From: an uncultured Spirochaetia bacterium
Lineage (GTDB): Bacteria > Spirochaetota > Spirochaetia > CAKZLE01
Direction of reading: 5' to 3'
DNA: 64,000 bases
NCBI GenBank assembly: GCA_937125225.1
Contig: CAKZLE010000002.1
Location: forward strand, 1-64,000
Shown here: in pieces, positions 54,585-64,000 of the stretch
How positions within the stretch are numbered: the stretch's first letter is position 1
Layout: each line of letters starts with the position of its first letter
The notes under the pieces: model-generated
Database searches by the model: none
What the model saw: the letters and a program-made list of their open reading frames with translations, nothing else
Told to the model about the DNA's origin: nothing
Made by a program: the position numbers and the translations under genes

Positions 54585-54613
54585 TTGATATTTTCACACC
54601 TATATATTATAAT
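54585..54613 (+). promoter_or_regulatory. Promoter of the sulfur-relay operon
   Basis: TTGATA (54585-54590), 17 bases, TATAAT (54608-54613): eleven of twelve consensus positions. The leader before the first gene is about 60 bases. Confidence 0.88.
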
Positions 54614-54678
54614 TCCCGTAAGTTATTAAATTATGCAATAATTATTGTATAAATCAACAGTATGGAGGATTGGACTAC

Positions 54679-55371
54679 ATGAGCGAAAACCAAGCTGCTG
54701 GATCATCTATTCAGCGTAGTTCCAGGTCAAGAACAAGACCAAAAAAGAAAAAGAAGAACCTACTTCCACAGGCAGCTATTCTAGTTGTACTCGTGGCAGT
54801 GGTGGGAATCCTTCTTGCAAGAACCTCTGCCCTACTCGCTGTCTTCTGGATAACAGGTATGGCTTTTGGATTCATCTTGCAGCGTTCCCGATTCTGCTTC
54901 ACTGCTTCTTTGAGAGACCCTTCTCTTACAGGAAGTACGACGTTGACACGTGCAGTGCTTATAGCATTCGCACTCACATCTTTAGGTTTCTGGGCAATCA
55001 AGTATGGAGCACACCTTAACGGTCTTCCTATACCAGGGCAGAGTTATGTCGTCCCTATCAGTCTTGCGACTGCAGTAGGCGCCTTCATGTTCGGTATCGG
55101 TATGGTTATCGCAGGTGGTTGTGCATCTGGTACTTTGATGCGAGTCGGAGAGGGATTCATCATGCAAGTCCTCTCACTCCTATTCTTCATCATAGGATCC
55201 CTTTGGGGAGCTCATGATTATGGATGGTGGAAACTCAATTTCATGCTCGATGGTAAAGCAATATTCATGCCGGATATCTTCGGTTGGATCGGCGCTATCA
55301 TCGTACAGCTTCTCATCATCGGGTGTCTATTCGTAGCAGCTGCAAAATGGGAAGAGAAGAAAAACAGTTAA
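54679..55371 (+). CDS. yeeE: YeeE/YedE-type sulfur channel, first half
   Basis: A 230-residue membrane protein. A Lys/Arg-rich cytoplasmic N-terminus (KKKKK near 22-26) precedes about six helices. Two conserved cysteine elements of the YeeE/TsuA thiosulfate channel are present: SRFCFTASLRD (Cys73) and AGGCASGTLMRVGEG (Cys148). Full-length YeeE has two such halves in one chain; here the other half is a separate gene at 55899. ATG 54679 is used, with GGAGG ten bases upstream. It should pass thiosulfate or a persulfide-type sulfur species inward. First gene of the operon. Confidence 0.9.
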   Translation: MSENQAAGSSIQRSSRSRTRPKKKKKNLLPQAAILVVLVAVVGILLARTSALLAVFWITGMAFGFILQRSRFCFTASLRDPSLTGSTTLTRAVLIAFALTSLGFWAIKYGAHLNGLPIPGQSYVVPISLATAVGAFMFGIGMVIAGGCASGTLMRVGEGFIMQVLSLLFFIIGSLWGAHDYGWWKLNFMLDGKAIFMPDIFGWIGAIIVQLLIIGCLFVAAAKWEEKKNS

Positions 55372-55391
55372 AGGATTATGAGGAGAGAAAC

Positions 55392-55619
55392 ATGGCAGAA
55401 TATGAACTAGATTGTTTAGGAGAAGCTTGTCCAGTACCACTGATCAAAGCTGAGAAAGAGTTAGATAAGATGAATGTCGGTGATGTTCTTATCGTTGCTA
55501 TCGACCATAGCTGTGCTATGAAGAACGTTCCCGAGTGGGCTCGAAAACAGGGTCACAATGTAGAACTGGATGAAGTCGATGATGGTGAATGGGAAGTAGT
55601 CATCGAGAAGATGAAATAA
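55392..55619 (+). CDS. tusA: TusA-family sulfur carrier, copy 1
   Basis: A 75-residue TusA/YeeD-type protein: LDCLGEACPVPL gives the Cys13-Pro-x-Pro active site, with Cys8 and a third conserved Cys41 (DHSCAMKNV). TusA proteins hold a persulfide on the CPxP cysteine. AGGAGAG precedes the ATG. In other bacteria YeeD/TsuB works with the YeeE channel; here the gene lies between the two channel halves. Copy 2 follows 25 bases later. Confidence 0.95.
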   Translation: MAEYELDCLGEACPVPLIKAEKELDKMNVGDVLIVAIDHSCAMKNVPEWARKQGHNVELDEVDDGEWEVVIEKMK

Positions 55620-55644: not shown

Positions 55645-55872
55645 ATGGCTGAATATGAATTAGATTGTTTTGGGGAAGCTTGTCCGATACCACTGGTAAA
55701 GGCAGAGAAAGAATTAGAAAAAATGAATGTAGGTGATATTCTCATCGTTGCGATCGACCATAGCTGTGCTATGAAGAACGTTCCTGAGTGGGCTCGAAAA
55801 CAGGGTCACAATGTGGAACTTGATGAGATTGATGATGGTGAATGGGAAGTAGTCATCGAGAAGATGAAATAA
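55645..55872 (+). CDS. tusA: TusA-family sulfur carrier, copy 2
   Basis: Also 75 residues, identical to copy 1 at 69 positions; the six changes are all conservative (for example Leu9Phe, Val15Ile, Asp25Glu). Cys8, Cys13 and Cys41 are all kept, so both copies should work. AAGGAGA precedes the ATG. The DNA is also very similar in the second half, consistent with a recent tandem duplication or ongoing gene conversion. Confidence 0.95.
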   Translation: MAEYELDCFGEACPIPLVKAEKELEKMNVGDILIVAIDHSCAMKNVPEWARKQGHNVELDEIDDGEWEVVIEKMK

Positions 55873-55898: not shown

Positions 55899-56432
55899 AT
55901 GAATATACGAAAGAATGCATTTTATAAAGCCTGGTTCAAAGATGCCTGGCCATATGTCACAGGAGCAATACTCCTTTCAATATTCCAGATCGTCACACTG
56001 GCGACAACTGGTAATCCTTGGGGAGTCTCTGGTGTCCTTGCATATTGGGGAGCCTGGATTTTTGAACTGTTCGGCGGTTCAGTAGATAAATGGTACTACT
56101 TTGCTTCTGATGGAGCACAGAATACCTTGAATAATGGAATACTCCAACATGGTGGATCGATCAGAAATATCGGTATCATCATCGGAGCACTCTTTTCATC
56201 TTTAGCTGCTTGTCAGTTCAAGATTAAAAAGATCAAAGCGATCCGACAGGTTGTCGCAGCCATTCTTGGCGGACTCCTTATGGGTTATGGTGCACGAATC
56301 GGTTTCGGCTGTAATATCGGAGCACTTTACAGTGGTATAGCGTCATTGTCTGTATCAGGATGGGTCTACGCAGTATTCCTGTTCCTCGGAGCATATGTCG
56401 GTAGTAAACTACTGGTAAAATTCTTTATGTAA
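55899..56432 (+). CDS. YeeE/YedE-type sulfur channel, second half
   Basis: A 177-residue membrane protein with about five helices. It has the matching channel element YGARIGFGCNIGALYSGIAS (Cys138), and Cys105 at a helix end. I infer that it pairs with the product of 54679 to rebuild a complete YeeE-like pore. The ATG at 55899 has a purine-rich but distant ribosome site (AGGGG). It lies 26 bases after tusA copy 2. Confidence 0.9.
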   Translation: MNIRKNAFYKAWFKDAWPYVTGAILLSIFQIVTLATTGNPWGVSGVLAYWGAWIFELFGGSVDKWYYFASDGAQNTLNNGILQHGGSIRNIGIIIGALFSSLAACQFKIKKIKAIRQVVAAILGGLLMGYGARIGFGCNIGALYSGIASLSVSGWVYAVFLFLGAYVGSKLLVKFFM

Positions 56433-56450: not shown

Positions 56451-57671
56451 ATGGCTAGAGAGAAGAAAGTAGAAGAATATGATGTTGTCATCATCGGTGG
56501 TGGTGCTGCCGGTCTTACAGCAGGTATCTATAGTGGTCGTGCGAAACTTAAGACGATCCTCATAGAGAAGTCACTCGTAGGTGGTCTTGCTACCTATACA
56601 AACGAGATCGAGAACTATCCAGGATTCCCTGAGGGAACGACTGGTCTTGGACTGATGGAATTATTCCAAAAACAGGCTAAGAAGTTTGGTGTTAAGTTCA
56701 AGGGAACTGATGTTAAGTCTGTTGATCTGAAAGGACCCATCAAGACTGTTGAAACTTTCAGAACTACCTACAAAGCTAAGACCGTCATCATCGCATCAGG
56801 TGGACGACCAAGAATAACAAGAGCTGAGAATGAAGAAGAATTCCTGTTCGATAAGGGAATCTCCTTCTGTGCTACCTGTGATGCAGCAGCGAACACAGGA
56901 AAAGACGTTCTTGTCATAGGTTCTGGAGATGCAGCAGTCGAAGAGGGAATGTTCCTTACCAAATTCGCAAACAAAGTCATCGTCTCTGTCATGCATGAAG
57001 AGGGAAAGATGGATTGTAATGAGATCGCTAAGGCAGAAGCCTTAGAGAATCCCAAGATGGAATTCATCTGGAACACCGTATGTAAGAGATTCGAAGGTGA
57101 AGAACACTTAACTAATGTAGTACTCACAGACCTGAGAAACGGTAGTGAAGTGAACGTTCCTGTAGACACCTGTTTCGAATTCATCGGATATATCCCTAAC
57201 ACAGAGATCTTCAAAGGTATCATCGATATGACTGATAGAGGCTATGTACTCGTCAATGATAAGATGGAAACCAATGTAGAGGGTGTTTTCTCAGCTGGTG
57301 ATGTGACAGAGAAATTCCTCAAGCAGGTCTCAACAGCAGTTGGTGATGGTGCTGTCGCAGGATATGCTGCAGAACGATACATCGCAGAGACAGAACAGTA
57401 TAACTCACAGATTCTTGCGAAGAATCAGTTTGTCTATGTATATGATGCTTCTTGTCCTAATTGTCAGAACAAGATGCTTGAGATCGAGGCTATCGAAACC
57501 AAGACCGAGGGAAAGATCAGTTTCTGTAAAGTCGATGTATACAAGTCTAAAGGATTATCAGATAGAATGGGTGTCTCAGTATTCCCAAGTGTAGCTGTAG
57601 TCAAAGATGGAGCGATCGTCGATGTATTGACTGAAGATTTCTCCCAATCAGTTTTAGAGACCTATCTCTAA
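56451..57671 (+). CDS. Thioredoxin reductase fused to a thioredoxin domain
   Basis: A 406-residue flavoprotein. The FAD motif is GGGAAG at 16-21, the redox pair CATC is at 140-143, the second dinucleotide motif is GSGDAA at 157-162, and the FAD-closing segment is VFSAGDV. Residues ~320-406 are a thioredoxin-like domain with CPNC at 335-338. A reductase-thioredoxin fusion is known in Mycobacterium leprae. Here it probably delivers electrons to persulfides on TusA or the channel. The CPNC pair differs from the usual CGPC, which would shift its redox potential. Cytoplasmic; 18 bases after the channel gene. Confidence 0.93.
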   Translation: MAREKKVEEYDVVIIGGGAAGLTAGIYSGRAKLKTILIEKSLVGGLATYTNEIENYPGFPEGTTGLGLMELFQKQAKKFGVKFKGTDVKSVDLKGPIKTVETFRTTYKAKTVIIASGGRPRITRAENEEEFLFDKGISFCATCDAAANTGKDVLVIGSGDAAVEEGMFLTKFANKVIVSVMHEEGKMDCNEIAKAEALENPKMEFIWNTVCKRFEGEEHLTNVVLTDLRNGSEVNVPVDTCFEFIGYIPNTEIFKGIIDMTDRGYVLVNDKMETNVEGVFSAGDVTEKFLKQVSTAVGDGAVAGYAAERYIAETEQYNSQILAKNQFVYVYDASCPNCQNKMLEIEAIETKTEGKISFCKVDVYKSKGLSDRMGVSVFPSVAVVKDGAIVDVLTEDFSQSVLETYL

Positions 57672-57698: not shown

Positions 57699-58610
57699 AT
57701 GAGAAAGAGAAATTATCTTATAACTGTCGTATGTGTACTGATGACACTTCTCGTGTTCGTCAGTTGCGGCAACTATGCAGAATCAGGTACTGTCATCATT
57801 GATGGTAAAGAAGCTGCAAAACTCGTTGATACCAACGGTGTGATCCTTGTTGATGCCCAGAAAGCATCAGCCTATGCTAAAGGTCATATCGAAGGAGCTG
57901 TCAACATCGGGCGAACAGACATAGTGAAGAAAGGCCTAGTAGTCAACATGCTAGCTGATAAAGCGGTAATCGAAGAGGTCTTCGGTTCACGAGGTATCAG
58001 TAATTCTACGACTGTCGTCATCTATGATAATAATGCCAATATGGATGCTGCCAGATTATGGTGGACGTTCCTCGTCTATGGACATGAGAATGTCAAGGTA
58101 GTCGGTGGCGGATTAGAAGAGATGGTACGGGCAGGTTTCACAACTTCGACAGAGGCTGTCAATGTTGCACCAGCAACATTCACCGCATCCGAGAAGAATA
58201 CAGATCTGATCGCGACCACTGCTGAAGTCCTTTCCCAGGTCAACGACCCGATGGATGATGTAGCATTGATTGACACCAGGACGATCGAAGAGGTCGAAGT
58301 GGGGACTATCCCCTCCTCTATCCATATCAACTATGTCAAGAATAACTATAATGATGGTACCTACAGGAAGATACAAGATATCAGGATCATCTATAAAGAG
58401 GCTGGAATCACTCCAGACTGCACGGCTATCATGTACTGTAAGACCTCTATTCGAGGGGCTCAGACTTTCTTGGCGCTCTACAATGCAGGCTATAGAAATC
58501 TGAAGTTGTATGATGGCGCATGGATCGAATGGGTATTAGATGCAGATAGACCTGTACAATTACCCGAGAACGACGCACCGGTCATTTCAAATACTCAAGA
58601 TGAATCTTAG
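57699..58610 (+). CDS. Two-domain rhodanese lipoprotein
   Basis: A 303-residue lipoprotein with lipobox VFVSC (Cys23). Two rhodanese folds are present: domain 1 (~33-140) with IIDGKEAAKLVD, GHIEGAVNIG and an Asp (D110) in place of the active Cys; domain 2 (~165-290) with VALIDTRTIEE and the active loop MYCKTSIRGAQ (Cys247). This is the usual inactive-plus-active layout of thiosulfate sulfurtransferases. It is anchored outside the inner membrane, where it could strip sulfane sulfur from thiosulfate. It lies 27 bases after the reductase gene. Confidence 0.93.
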   Translation: MRKRNYLITVVCVLMTLLVFVSCGNYAESGTVIIDGKEAAKLVDTNGVILVDAQKASAYAKGHIEGAVNIGRTDIVKKGLVVNMLADKAVIEEVFGSRGISNSTTVVIYDNNANMDAARLWWTFLVYGHENVKVVGGGLEEMVRAGFTTSTEAVNVAPATFTASEKNTDLIATTAEVLSQVNDPMDDVALIDTRTIEEVEVGTIPSSIHINYVKNNYNDGTYRKIQDIRIIYKEAGITPDCTAIMYCKTSIRGAQTFLALYNAGYRNLKLYDGAWIEWVLDADRPVQLPENDAPVISNTQDES

Positions 58611-58651: not shown

Positions 58652-60427
58652 ATGAAGAGATTAAGATTGATAAGTATCTTATTACTTACACTAGTACTGT
58701 CATTCAGCTTTATAGCTTGTAGTGCTAAAGAAGAGGCTGCACCTGTAGTCGAAAAGACGACTGAAGTCAAGACTGCTGTTGTTGAGAAGGCTCCAGAACC
58801 TGTAGTGGATCCTGTTGTCGAGGCAGCAAATGCTTTCTTTGCAAATAAACCAGATGACAGTTATCTGATCAAAGAGACTGCTTTTGTCGACATGGTAAAA
58901 GCTGGTGAAGAACCCTTCATCCTAGATATCAGATCAGCTGCTGACTATGAAGCTGGACACGTAATGGGTGCTTTCAATGCTCCTTGGGGTGCGACTGCGA
59001 TCCCAGCAGCCTTGAGTCAACTCCCTGTAGACCAGACCGTCTATGTATATTGTGTAAGTGGTCAGACTGCAGGTCAGACTGTCGCATTGCTCAACGTAGC
59101 TGGTTTCGATGCAAAATCAGTACGATACGGTTATAAACTCGGAATATCTAAAGTAGAGGGAGTCGAAGAGGTCATTGAGACTACTCCTAACTTCCTTGAA
59201 GATCTTGGGACTGAGATCGACCCAGCTATTGAAGCTGCGATCGTAGATTACTATGCAACACTGAATGCTGATGAGTCTACCAAGAGTAATATCATCGCTG
59301 CTTCAGCTGCTAAAGACAATCTAGATGCTTCTGAGGGAGAAATCGTTGTTGTCTCTATTAGAAAAGCAAGTGACTTCGAAGACAAACACATCGAAGGTGC
59401 TATCAACATCCCTTACGGAAAAGGTATGCAGGAGAACTTCTCACAACTACCTAAAGACAAACAACTGTATGTATACTGCTATAGTGGACAAACAGCTGGT
59501 CAGACCGTTGCTATCCTGAAACTCCTTGGTTATGATGCTGCATCAGTCAAGAGTGGTTTTGGAACAGGTATGAGTGGTGGTGGATGGAATAACGAAGGTC
59601 TTCCTATCATACAGACCAACGTTGTTGAAGAGGCTGCAAATGCATACTTCGCAGAAAAAGCCGCTGATAACAATATCATCAAAGAGGATGCGTTCCTAGC
59701 AAAGATCGAAGATGGAGAAGAACTCTTCATCCTTGATATCAGAAAAGCTTCGGACTATGAGGCAGGACACATCATCGGTGCTTATAGTGCTCCTTGGGGT
59801 CCAACTGCTATTCCTGCTGTACTTGAGAATCTACCTACAGACCAGACAGTATATGTCTATTGTGTAAGTGGCCAGACTGCAGGACAGACAGTCGCACTTC
59901 TCAATGTAGCTGGTATTGAAGCAAAATCCGTACGATATGGATTCAAACTTGGAATCTCAAAAGTCGAAGGCTATGAAGATTTCGTAGTTACTGAACCCTA
60001 TGAGATGGAAGAGCTTGGAAATACTATCGATCCACAGATCGAAGCTGCGATCGTCGATTATTATGCTACGCTGAATGAGGATGAGAGAACCAAGAGTAAC
60101 ATCATCTCTGCAGAGGCTGCAAAAGATCTTCTCGATGCATCTGAAGGTGAGATCGTTCTTGTATCGATCAGACAACCTGCTGACTATGCTGCAGGACATA
60201 TCGAAGGTGCTATCAATATTCCTTGGGCACAGGGTATGCAGACAAGTTTTGAGCAACTTCCTAAAGATCAGCAGATCCTTCTCTACTGTTATAGTGGACA
60301 GACTGCAGGTCAGACCGTCGCTATCATGAAACTTCTTGGATATGATGTCGCATCAATCAAGAGTGGTTTTGGAACCGGCATGAGTGGTGGTGGATGGAAC
60401 AACGAAGGTTTCCCTGTTGTTCAGTAG
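58652..60427 (+). CDS. Four-domain rhodanese lipoprotein
   Basis: A 591-residue lipoprotein: lipobox FIAC (Cys23), then an Ala/Glu/Val/Pro linker (~25-55), then four rhodanese domains. All four keep an active cysteine, at 134, 276, 404 and 546, in alternating loops CVSGQTAGQ and CYSGQTAGQ. The spacing shows an exact A-B-A-B duplication of 270 residues. Domains B end in a GMSGGGWNNEG loop. It is anchored extracytoplasmically and should carry up to four persulfides. It is the last gene of the operon; a strong terminator follows. AAGGAG precedes the ATG. Confidence 0.95.
   Translation: MKRLRLISILLLTLVLSFSFIACSAKEEAAPVVEKTTEVKTAVVEKAPEPVVDPVVEAANAFFANKPDDSYLIKETAFVDMVKAGEEPFILDIRSAADYEAGHVMGAFNAPWGATAIPAALSQLPVDQTVYVYCVSGQTAGQTVALLNVAGFDAKSVRYGYKLGISKVEGVEEVIETTPNFLEDLGTEIDPAIEAAIVDYYATLNADESTKSNIIAASAAKDNLDASEGEIVVVSIRKASDFEDKHIEGAINIPYGKGMQENFSQLPKDKQLYVYCYSGQTAGQTVAILKLLGYDAASVKSGFGTGMSGGGWNNEGLPIIQTNVVEEAANAYFAEKAADNNIIKEDAFLAKIEDGEELFILDIRKASDYEAGHIIGAYSAPWGPTAIPAVLENLPTDQTVYVYCVSGQTAGQTVALLNVAGIEAKSVRYGFKLGISKVEGYEDFVVTEPYEMEELGNTIDPQIEAAIVDYYATLNEDERTKSNIISAEAAKDLLDASEGEIVLVSIRQPADYAAGHIEGAINIPWAQGMQTSFEQLPKDQQILLYCYSGQTAGQTVAIMKLLGYDVASIKSGFGTGMSGGGWNNEGFPVVQ
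58811..60424 (+). repeat. 810-bp tandem internal duplication in the four-domain rhodanese gene
   Basis: Two copies of about 810 bp lie in frame, boundary near 59620. Protein landmarks recur exactly 270 residues apart. The two copies have diverged at many third positions, so it is not brand new. Confidence 0.9.
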
Positions 60428-60456: not shown

Positions 60457-60487
60457 GGCACTCTGCACATGCAGAGTGCCTTTTTTA
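60457..60487 (+). terminator. Strong terminator of the sulfur-relay operon
   Basis: A perfect 10-bp stem, GGCACTCTGC / GCAGAGTGCC, with loop ACAT, is followed by TTTTTTATTT. Confidence 0.95.
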
Positions 60488-60525
60488 TTTCTGCGTACTT
60501 GACTTACTATGCTATACTTTTGAAT

Positions 60526-62109
60526 GTGACTAACATAAAGAAGATCGATTACAGTACCCACATATTAATACGTCTCATTCCTCTAATCTACATTATGATT
60601 TGGAGTCTCTTTCAATATTCCACTCTTACGACCTACCCCTTCATGCATTCAGATGAATCCTGGCTCAGTGGTCTGAGTAGATGGATGCTCGAATCAAAGA
60701 GCCTTGGAGTCACTGAACCTTTCTTCAATACATATCAGAGAGCTCCACATGCGATCAAGAGTCTCTTTCATGGGATCCAGATGGTCGGTATCTCACTTTT
60801 AGGGTATTCGCTTCAGGTCATCAGATCCATATCTCTTCTGTTTGCAGCAGGCTCACTGCTGCTTTTCTTTCGTATCCTACGATCTTATGGCCTTTCAACG
60901 ACGATCTCCTTCTTTGGGATGCTCCTCATCTCTGCAGACAATCAGTTTCTCTATATAAGCCACCTCGGCAGACAGGAGATCATGCTTGTCTTCATGCTGC
61001 TTCTAGTCCTCTATCTCATCAGGCGATTTGAAAAACATGAATTGTCTACTCTAAGCTGTTTCGGCTTGGGGATGCTCACAGGTTCAGCCTTCCTACTTCA
61101 TCCCAACGGGATCCTAGTCATACTAGCCGGTCTAACACTCTTCAGCTTTAGTTCTTGGAGTACGAAGCGGCAAATCATGATCTATGGAGCTGGCGCATTC
61201 CTCATAGTTGGCCTCGCATTGATAGCTAGCCTGATCATGAATCCCCACTTTCTCACAAGTTATGCGGCATATGGGAAGACACTGGGGGTGGGCGAATCGA
61301 TTATTTCAAAGATCTTGAACTACCCGAACTTCTACAGGAAGATCTATTACCAGGTCAGTGGGACCTATTATACTCCACCAGTCATGATAGAGCTGATGCT
61401 GCTATCATTGACCTATATCATCAGTGCCCTACTCCTGATAAAGAAGAGAGTTGAACTTCCTCATATTTTCTCGCTATTAATGGCATCTTTAGTGATGCAT
61501 GCAGGATTCATCATCATCGGAAGATACGGTCAGCCGTCAGTGATACTCTTCTTTCCATATGGTTATCTGATCATGATCCTGCTCATCAACAGGATCAGAG
61601 CACAACGATGGATGAGGAGTGCTCTTATCGCACTACTGTTTCTGATTCTATCAACAAGCACCTTCACCGAGGTCAGACTCATGATTGACCAACAGTCTGA
61701 CTATACCGAATATACTCAACACATCGCAGGGAACATTGGTAACGAGGCAAAGGTTCTCGGTAACCTCAATACCGATTATGCCCTCTCTGCAGGACAATTA
61801 TATGATTGGAGGAATCTTGAGCCGGCCTATCGGGAGGGGTACTCGTTCGAACAATATGTAAAAGAGAATCATATCGAGTATATCATCTATCCTGATGAGA
61901 TAGATCTCATCTACGAGAGGCGGCCAAAATGGAATGGGATCTATGGGAACATCGCCCTCATGTATGAGGAGATGCAGGTATTCCTCTCTGAATCTTGTAT
62001 CGAGATCGGTAGAGGTATCAGTCCGACCTATGCGATGAGGATCGTTCGTTATCAAGGTGATCAAGATTGGGGGTATCGAATCTATCAGGTAGTCTCTGAT
62101 CAGTCGTAG
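60526..62109 (+). CDS. GT-C-type membrane glycosyltransferase (ArnT/PMT-like)
   Basis: A polytopic protein of about 527 residues with roughly eleven helices and a soluble C-terminal domain (~400 onward). An acidic motif near the first loop (HSDESWLSG) matches the D-E catalytic site of polyprenyl-phosphate-sugar-dependent glycosyltransferases. It likely adds sugar to an envelope lipid or protein. The frame is open back to an ATG at 60469, but that codon is inside the preceding terminator. GTG 60526 (or TTG 60520) follows an extended -10, TGCTATACT at 60510-60518, so the message may be leaderless. The start is uncertain; the family is fairly clear. Confidence 0.8.
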   Translation: MTNIKKIDYSTHILIRLIPLIYIMIWSLFQYSTLTTYPFMHSDESWLSGLSRWMLESKSLGVTEPFFNTYQRAPHAIKSLFHGIQMVGISLLGYSLQVIRSISLLFAAGSLLLFFRILRSYGLSTTISFFGMLLISADNQFLYISHLGRQEIMLVFMLLLVLYLIRRFEKHELSTLSCFGLGMLTGSAFLLHPNGILVILAGLTLFSFSSWSTKRQIMIYGAGAFLIVGLALIASLIMNPHFLTSYAAYGKTLGVGESIISKILNYPNFYRKIYYQVSGTYYTPPVMIELMLLSLTYIISALLLIKKRVELPHIFSLLMASLVMHAGFIIIGRYGQPSVILFFPYGYLIMILLINRIRAQRWMRSALIALLFLILSTSTFTEVRLMIDQQSDYTEYTQHIAGNIGNEAKVLGNLNTDYALSAGQLYDWRNLEPAYREGYSFEQYVKENHIEYIIYPDEIDLIYERRPKWNGIYGNIALMYEEMQVFLSESCIEIGRGISPTYAMRIVRYQGDQDWGYRIYQVVSDQS

Positions 62110-62852
62110 GTCCTATGGATCATAGATGAGAAGGTATCAAAACCCTCCATACTACATTGCCTCGGCCTCTGTAGAGGATTATCGTAACGTTGGAGTCTTC
62201 CACCATTACTCTCATCCATCGTATAGAGGGTATCAGAGAGGATGATCGCCTCCCCCACATCATGAGTCACGAATACCACTGAGGTATCAGTCTCTTTCCA
62301 AAGTTCGATCACAAGTCGCTGTTGAGCACTCCTACTCTTTGGATCTAGGCTTGCAAAGGGTTCATCCATAAGCAGGACTTTTGGCCTGATCGCAAGAGCT
62401 CGAGCGAGAGCTGCTCTCTGTTTCATCCCCCCTGATAGTTCATGAGGGTATTTATCTTTATGAGAAAGCATCCCTGCGCGTTCAAGATAGGACTCAATAT
62501 ACCCCTTTAATTCTAAAGCACTCATTTTTGGATACCGTTTTTTTAACGGAAAGAGCATGTTCTCATAGACGGTCTTCCAGGGGAAAAGCTGATCGAACTC
62601 CTGAAATATCATGATCCTATCCATCGATGGTGAGGAAACTCTTCTATCCTCGATAAGCAGCAATCCCTCATGGTACTGTTCGAATCCAGCTAGGACTCGC
62701 AATAGAGTAGATTTCCCACAACCTGAATTTCCGAGGATACAGACAAACTCCCCAGGCAGAACTGTTAAAGAGACCTTTTCCAGAACAGAGACAGAGGTCT
62801 GAGCATCAGTATAACTGAAGGATATCTCTCTCATTGATACCATGGGAATCAT
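62100..62852 (-). CDS. ABC transporter ATPase, SsuB/TauB type
   Basis: A 250-residue ATPase: Walker A LGNSGCGKSTLLR, Q-loop MIFQEFDQLFPWKTV, signature LSGGMKQRAALARAL, Walker B VLLMDEPFASLD, and H-loop VTHDV. The LFPWKTV segment is typical of nitrate/sulfonate/taurine importers. ATG 62852 follows GGAGGTG and overlaps the permease stop by four bases. It converges with the glycosyltransferase gene, overlapping its end by ten bases. Confidence 0.94.
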   Translation of the reverse strand: MIPMVSMREISFSYTDAQTSVSVLEKVSLTVLPGEFVCILGNSGCGKSTLLRVLAGFEQYHEGLLLIEDRRVSSPSMDRIMIFQEFDQLFPWKTVYENMLFPLKKRYPKMSALELKGYIESYLERAGMLSHKDKYPHELSGGMKQRAALARALAIRPKVLLMDEPFASLDPKSRSAQQRLVIELWKETDTSVVFVTHDVGEAIILSDTLYTMDESNGGRLQRYDNPLQRPRQCSMEGFDTFSSMIHRTYD

Positions 62853-63628
62853 TGAGCACCTCCGTTTGAATGTTTGACCCTACGTTCTATTCTTTTGAAG
62901 AGGATATCTTCGATGACTAGTCCGATGATGATCAGGACTAACAGTCCAGCATACATACCTGAGGTATCCATGAAGACCCTCTTATTGAAGATATACCAGC
63001 CAAGACCTCCATACAGTCCAATTACACCGAAGACCATCTCAGCACTGATCACAGCTCTCCAGGAGCGAGCCCAGGCGATTCTGAGACCGGCGACCATATA
63101 GGACCAGGAGCTTGGGATAAGGACATGGATTATCAGCCCCCATCTTCCATACTCATAGTTTCGCCCGATATCGAGGAAGGTCCTGTTCACCGAACTGAAG
63201 CCTGCATTGAAGTTGATCACCATAGGCCAGAGCACCGCATGGATCACGATGAAGAAGATAGAGAGGGTCCCTGTACCGAACCAGAGGATGACAAGAGGAA
63301 GCAATGCGATACCGGGTAGAGGATGTGCGATCGAGGTAAGGACCTCTACCCCGCTAGCGAGGAGGGGGAATAGGTAGGAGACTATCGAGAGAATAAGAGC
63401 AAATAACGTTCCGAGGATCATTCCGCCGAACACCAGTGCCAGAGATACTCCGATTCGTAAAAGAAGGGTACCCCCGACTAGATCATCTACAAGGGCTCTC
63501 AAAATATCTAAGAGTGAGGGTAGAATCAACTCTGATACGAATCCTGTAGAGACTATGAGTTCCCAAAGCAATAGGAAACTCGCAATCCAGAGTACATGCT
63601 CAATTGTTCTTCGTGGTCTCTTGTTCAT
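62849..63628 (-). CDS. ABC transporter permease, SsuC/TauC type
   Basis: A 259-residue permease with about six helices. The EAA loop is in the segment RIAWARSWRAVISAEMVFGVIGLYGGLGW, and HPLPGIALLPLVILWFGTG is the conserved permease stretch of this family. It forms the pore for the ATPase at 62100. It begins two bases after the binding-protein stop. Confidence 0.94.
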   Translation of the reverse strand: MNKRPRRTIEHVLWIASFLLLWELIVSTGFVSELILPSLLDILRALVDDLVGGTLLLRIGVSLALVFGGMILGTLFALILSIVSYLFPLLASGVEVLTSIAHPLPGIALLPLVILWFGTGTLSIFFIVIHAVLWPMVINFNAGFSSVNRTFLDIGRNYEYGRWGLIIHVLIPSSWSYMVAGLRIAWARSWRAVISAEMVFGVIGLYGGLGWYIFNKRVFMDTSGMYAGLLVLIIIGLVIEDILFKRIERRVKHSNGGAQ

Positions 63629-63630
63629 AC

Positions 63631-64000
63631 CTATTCCCAGACCAATAGCTCTCTAGCTACTGGAATATCTTCAAGATACCCCTGTTCATACATGAATGAG
63701 CCAAAATGTTCCATCCCTAGAATCTCCGAGGAAAAGATCATCCCCTCTTCTCTCAGGTATGCTTCGATCACGGAGGGCTCTAACTCATAGACATCAGCTA
63801 AGAGAGCGGCAGCCTCTGTCGGATCTTCAGTTATCAGATCGATCGCCTCCTGAAGGGCACTAGTAAAAGCTTCGTAGAGTTCGGGTTCTTTCTCATGAAA
63901 CTCTTCTGTAGCATATCCCACGATAAAGGTGAAGGGAGCCCCGAAGGCCTCCTCTCCTGAGAGGATCATTCTCGCACCAGCTAATCCCTGCTCCCTGAAG
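63631..64000 (-). CDS. ABC substrate-binding protein, C-terminal part (runs off the window)
   Basis: About 123 C-terminal residues of an NMT1/SsuA-like periplasmic binding protein; its 5' part lies beyond the window end. Visible features: FHEKEPELYEAFTSALQEAI, EDPTEAAALLADVY and FGSFMYEQGYLEDIP, the helical tail typical of nitrate/sulfonate/thiamine-precursor binders. The substrate is not decidable. A sulfonate ligand would fit the nearby sulfur operon but is only a guess. Confidence 0.88.
   Translation of the reverse strand, partial: FREQGLAGARMILSGEEAFGAPFTFIVGYATEEFHEKEPELYEAFTSALQEAIDLITEDPTEAAALLADVYELEPSVIEAYLREEGMIFSSEILGMEHFGSFMYEQGYLEDIPVARELLVWE

Follow-up and report, generated by a model that had tools for sequence, protein, structure and literature searches.

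The gene at 58652..60427 (+ strand) of the window analysed here, that is, the first 64,000 nucleotides of contig CAKZLE010000002.1 from an uncultured Spirochaetia bacterium, encodes a 591-aa putative lipoprotein precursor that carries an export signal and four rhodanese domains in A-B-A-B order, each with an intact active-site Cys. The protein is a doubled form of a known two-site envelope rhodanese, the doubling being recurrent, and is of interest as a variant, not as a new type of protein. It is reasonably probable that it acts as a periplasm-facing lipoprotein sulfurtransferase, built from a doubled A-B module with two active sites, that feeds YedE/TusA import and thiol-dependent reduction; its operon partners recur beside its relatives, and the doubling is repeated within the family. 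It is not well settled how fermenting anaerobes reduce thiosulfate in the absence of the customary respiratory reductases, a question with a bearing on the souring and corrosion of oil and gas wells. A conserved operon in which envelope rhodaneses, both of their sites intact, are coupled to YedE/TusA import constitutes a concrete, testable pathway, and the repeated doublings are natural replicates for what additional sulfurtransferase sites bring.

The precursor starts with a signal peptide (58652..58720) that ends in a lipobox-like FIA-C23. FIAC at residues 20-23, judged by eye, fits the relaxed lipobox of spirochaetes, and a simple lipobox pattern picks out 60 of 87 homologues, many of the others carrying a plain signal peptide. 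The first A-B unit, identified by a unit HMM match and by its Cys columns, spans residues 52-321 (58805..59614) and contains Cys134 and Cys276; the second, identified by the same HMM, spans residues 321-591 (59612..60424) and contains Cys404 and Cys546. Apart from Cys23, the protein has no further Cys. PF00581 (Rhodanese) matches in four stretches (E 1.1e-53, 180.4 bits against a gathering cut-off of 22.2), and membership of the Rhodanese superfamily is indicated both by this domain score and by the active-site Cys that opens the catalytic loop. When the protein is compared with itself, a shift of exactly 270 residues gives 198 identical residues out of 321 (62%), far ahead of all other shifts; the runner-up, at 412, reaches 22% identity, and none comes near the shift of 270. 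Gapped comparison gives 71% identity for A1/A2, 75% for B1/B2 and 41-45% for A/B, all 18-37 sd over shuffled controls, and the difference between these values suggests that A and B are older paralogues and that the A-B pair was doubled later. The first-pass annotation had proposed the A-B-A-B order, the four cysteine positions and A-to-A and B-to-B distances of exactly 270 residues, all of which are borne out by the ORF sequence, Pfam and the self-comparison that it called for. Equal spacings are also found in other doubled homologues (271/271 in L055, 269/269 in L068 and 279/279 in L081), which makes the exact 270-residue spacing less remarkable than it first seems. Between the two halves, 45% of third codon positions differ, which rules out an assembly error or a recent copy as the source of the repeat. 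With dN of 0.19 and dS of 1.08 (dN/dS ~0.18), the repeat is best read as a duplication of long standing that purifying selection has maintained.

Relatives were collected by an alignment-based scan of GTDB genomes, patterns made from the single sequence having been too specific to retrieve any. Among the best 80 of 322 relatives, which were examined, the hosts are anaerobic Spirochaetota, Halanaerobiales, diverse Clostridia and one Calditrichota genome, and the family occurs in known thiosulfate or sulfur reducers, including Halanaerobium, Dethiosulfatibacter, Fusibacter and Spirochaeta smaragdinae (L025). The usual member is ~310 aa long and has one A-B unit, that is, two domains. Such (lipo)proteins of Spirochaetota, Halanaerobiales and Clostridia, for example L033, L025 of S. 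smaragdinae and L047 of Halanaerobium congolense, contain the same unit (~45-65% identical) with both Cys and have the same neighbours, but differ from the window protein in having one unit instead of two. The four-domain form is found at no fewer than 16 further loci, at lengths of 585-610 aa and with all four Cys present. Other A-B-A-B proteins, such as those of Dethiosulfatibacter (L068), Fusibacter sp. 3D3 (L106), Calditrichales (L055) and Acidaminobacter (L111), have the same architecture and four Cys and are 42-50% identical to the window protein over the full length. Within the window's own class, 44 of 297 genomes hold the A-B family, and two units in one 591-aa frame are found only in the window's genome.

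Of 103 units, 102 carry the A-site Cys and all carry the B-site Cys; the sole exception has Ser at the A site and belongs to an ankyrin-fused protein. The search patterns held GQTAG, but not all of them demanded Cys and a match in either domain was enough, so the search itself does not wholly account for this conservation. Judging from these sequences, two intact sites are the rule of the A-B family and not a peculiarity of the 591-aa protein. The earlier claim that all four sites are intact is therefore upheld, whereas its corollary, that this is exceptional for tandem rhodaneses, is not, both Cys being conserved throughout the two-domain relatives. The classical TST/MST enzymes (1rhd, 1e0c and 1urh) have the rhodanese fold of each domain in common with the window protein, but they contain one dead domain, whereas every domain of the window protein keeps its Cys; their pattern of an inactive N-domain and an active C-domain is seen instead in the neighbouring protein RHO2. 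A tandem rhodanese with two active sites has been described, by its title, in Desulfitobacterium hafniense (Prat 2012, in PMC6148476); it is alike in its two active sites but, as far as the title tells, is not doubled. The best structural and sequence match, PDB 1yt8 of Pseudomonas aeruginosa, also has four rhodanese domains per chain, but its identity is ~17%, its whole chain does not superpose (rmsd 27 Å), it is not an A-B-A-B repeat, and at least its first domain is without Cys (VYDDG). A literature search for proteins with four rhodanese domains found no paper, most subscription journals lying outside its coverage.

The model of the two-domain relative L033 has a mean pLDDT of 91 and a pTM of 0.83. 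Set against the PDB, the predicted A-B unit resembles rhodanese domains, but its two domains are not packed as in the tandem TST/MST enzymes (rmsd ~10 Å, TM ≤0.42), a comparison that is based on a prediction. The full-length model of the window protein, built from an alignment of 17 sequences only, has a pLDDT of 84 and a pTM of 0.54, which means that the domains are confident and their overall arrangement uncertain; it gives no sign of a rigid rod, the shape that had been proposed. That proposal placed a persulfide carrier or storage rod on the cell envelope, and its parts fare differently. The envelope location fits the sequence and the operon, with which a role as a multi-site persulfide carrier is also plausibly consistent. 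A multi-site store or rod, in contrast, is highly improbable: although one anchored chain bears four intact Cys, at most four sulfurs on a 64-kDa protein make a poor store, most relatives have two sites only, and a location next to import genes speaks for throughput, not for storage.

A maximum-likelihood tree built from A-B units pairs the two halves of the window protein as sisters (SH-aLRT 99) and places a two-domain protein from a genome of the same family beside them (SH-aLRT 96); by the same tree, the other A-B-A-B proteins named above were doubled separately from the window lineage. One ancient A-B-A-B duplication, with all first units as one clade, is rejected (p 5e-57), and so is a single doubling event, with all doubled units as one clade (p 3.6e-5). 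Between the single and doubled states, the tree requires a minimum of 7-8 changes, and well-supported branches make at least four of them unavoidable. Losses rather than gains may account for some of these changes, and the multiple-origin signal could in part be imitated by gene conversion from one half to the other, but the near saturation of synonymous sites in the window protein argues against recent conversion there. More than one independent doubling in the family is well supported by this sequence evidence. At three loci (L046, L051 and L074), two separate A-B genes lie next to each other, followed by split YedE-TusA-YedE, as an unfused counterpart of the doubled protein. It might be supposed that the doubling is selectively neutral and brings no functional gain, given that the two-domain and four-domain forms are found in the same neighbourhoods; this is unlikely in view of the repeated origins, the low dN/dS between the halves and the retention of all four Cys in 17 of 17 doubled proteins. 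A functional doubling, as we prefer to read it, would put more loading sites on each membrane anchor, with the same effect as a pair of adjacent A-B genes in relatives.

The four-rhodanese gene is the last of a seven-gene unit on the + strand. A sigma-70-like promoter (TTGATA-17-TATAAT, 54585..54613, 11 of 12 by consensus match only) precedes the N-terminal half of a YedE/TsuA family protein (54670..55371; Cys76 in RFC and Cys151 in GGC), followed by a first TusA-like protein with a CPVP motif (55284..55619, the true start being probably near 55392), a second with a CPIP motif (55645..55872; 69 of 75 residues identical to the first), the C-terminal half of YedE/TsuA (55899..56432; Cys138 in GFGC), a thioredoxin reductase fused to a thioredoxin-like domain (56451..57671; CATC and CPNC motifs) and RHO2 (57699..58610), a tandem-rhodanese lipoprotein whose domain 1 is without an active Cys (YDNN) and whose domain 2 has Cys247 (YCKTSIRG). 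An intrinsic terminator, consisting of a 10-pair stem and a T-run, lies directly 3' of the four-rhodanese gene (60457..60480), and the stretch from promoter to terminator is apparently one transcription unit. The TusA genes sit between the two YedE halves, over which the three relay-type Cys are divided, and tandem doubling of TusA is also seen at L033, L049, L059, L084, L092 and L103. Across the family, 65 of 84 loci, among them all 17 with the four-domain form, have a one-site rhodanese no more than 1.5 kb away. Within 8 kb of the A-B gene, YedE is found at 37 and TusA at 39 of the 84 loci; more than half of the loci show no YedE/TusA near the A-B gene, partly owing to contig ends. At L038 (12027-15073) and similar loci of Halanaerobium and other Clostridia, an unsplit YedE lies beside a CoA-disulfide-reductase-like flavoprotein with a C-terminal rhodanese.

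For the substrate, the direction of flow, the partners and the benefit of doubling, we infer a scheme in which each active-site Cys would take sulfane sulfur off thiosulfate or polysulfide to form a persulfide; the sulfur would then be passed, either directly or via the one-site neighbour RHO2, to the split YedE importer and the two TusA proteins, and electrons from the thioredoxin reductase-thioredoxin fusion would serve sulfide release or thiol regeneration. The YedE Cys motifs are as expected of a three-Cys relay, and CPxP is present in both TusA copies. The catalytic loop, CY[ST]GQTAGQ, is without the basic residues of bovine-type rhodanese, where they favour thiosulfate, so the substrate may be polysulfide or persulfide. 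In YeeE/YeeD (TsuA/TsuB) of E. coli and Spirochaeta thermophila, the nearest pair to have been studied, thiosulfate is moved by a cysteine relay and split on the CPxP Cys (PMC11073785). The YedE and TusA neighbours have matching Cys motifs, but unlike that system the window has YedE split into two genes, two TusA and extra envelope rhodaneses. The YTD cluster of sulfur disproportionators (PMC12998232), defined by yedE, tusA and dsrE, has the first two in common with the window; no DsrE was found among the seven operon genes, which include rhodaneses and a thioredoxin reductase instead.

A rhodanese-plus-Asr route of thiosulfate reduction has been proposed for Halanaerobium, in an isolate of which rhodaneses go up with thiosulfate (PMC5497025). 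In the host genome, AsrA and the NIR_SIR sulfite reductase are absent and no AsrC scores over the cut-off, so no known enzyme would be there to reduce the sulfite that thiosulfate yields, and complete reduction by this route is not evident; a sulfite reductase as partner was rejected on the same grounds. AsrA is also absent in the Fusibacter, Dethiosulfatibacter and H. congolense assemblies checked. The substrate may be sulfur, polysulfide or the sulfane atom alone of thiosulfate.

The A-B family is probably related to RdlA/PhsE, rhodaneses found in thiosulfate reducers. RdlA of H. congolense (Ravot 2005; Q6Q1E2 in PMC5573963) shares with the family its organisms and the context of thiosulfate reduction and, from what these sources give, may be either the A-B protein or the adjacent one-site rhodanese; it is reported in H. 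congolense and S. smaragdinae (PMC3035371), and no phs genes were found in the seven-gene operon. The A-B proteins might be periplasmic thiosulfate-splitting enzymes in the RdlA/PhsE role, with sulfite released outside and sulfur import secondary. The presence of the family in H. congolense (L047) and S. smaragdinae, the rhodanese activity reported there (Ravot 2005, as cited in PMC3035371) and the greater amount of rhodanese with thiosulfate in the Halanaerobium isolate all agree with this, but either of the two adjacent rhodanese genes could be rdlA, and the host and several other carriers are without AsrA; overall, we judge such a role to have a rather low probability. It is still less probable, indeed quite improbable, that selenium, another chalcogen or an oxyanion is handled instead of sulfur. 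Relatives of YedE/TusA do include the selenium-associated YedE/YedF, and a cluster linked to selenite/tellurite in Geobacter encodes the rhodanese lipoprotein ExtH, but on the YedE/TusA genes of the window the NCBIfam selenium-associated YedE/YedF models and the thiosulfate TsuA/TsuB models alike match weakly and far under cut-off, and the carriers are chiefly sulfur or thiosulfate reducers. Our search found no direct assay for the A-B family. Beyond the sulfurtransferase reading favoured here, we entertain with some doubt that recurrent, independent doubling is adaptive in that it creates a multivalent sulfur relay, with four persulfide sites per anchor loading the split YedE/TusA importer, which would constitute an undescribed extracytoplasmic delivery system of fermenting thiosulfate/sulfur reducers.

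A few members depart from the usual forms. The 1251-aa lipoprotein-like protein at L034 (1-3756, G049:C14), considered as a longer rhodanese array and rejected as such, consists of ankyrin repeats, a long EP repeat and one A-B unit, the one with Ser at the A site; its genome also carries a normal A-B gene (L084). L031 (7646-8161) is a 171-aa single-domain relative with a B-type domain only. L014, with an in-frame TGA, was considered as a selenoprotein but looks like a short degraded remnant, and no intact copy was found in its genome. Downstream of the sulfur unit in the window, and convergent with it, genes for an ABC ATPase, a permease and a probable substrate-binding protein of the nitrate/sulfonate/thiamine-precursor type occupy 62100-63969 (-). 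Between them lies one hydrophobic ORF of 546 aa (60469-62109, +), whose listed start falls inside the terminator and whose real start is probably further downstream.
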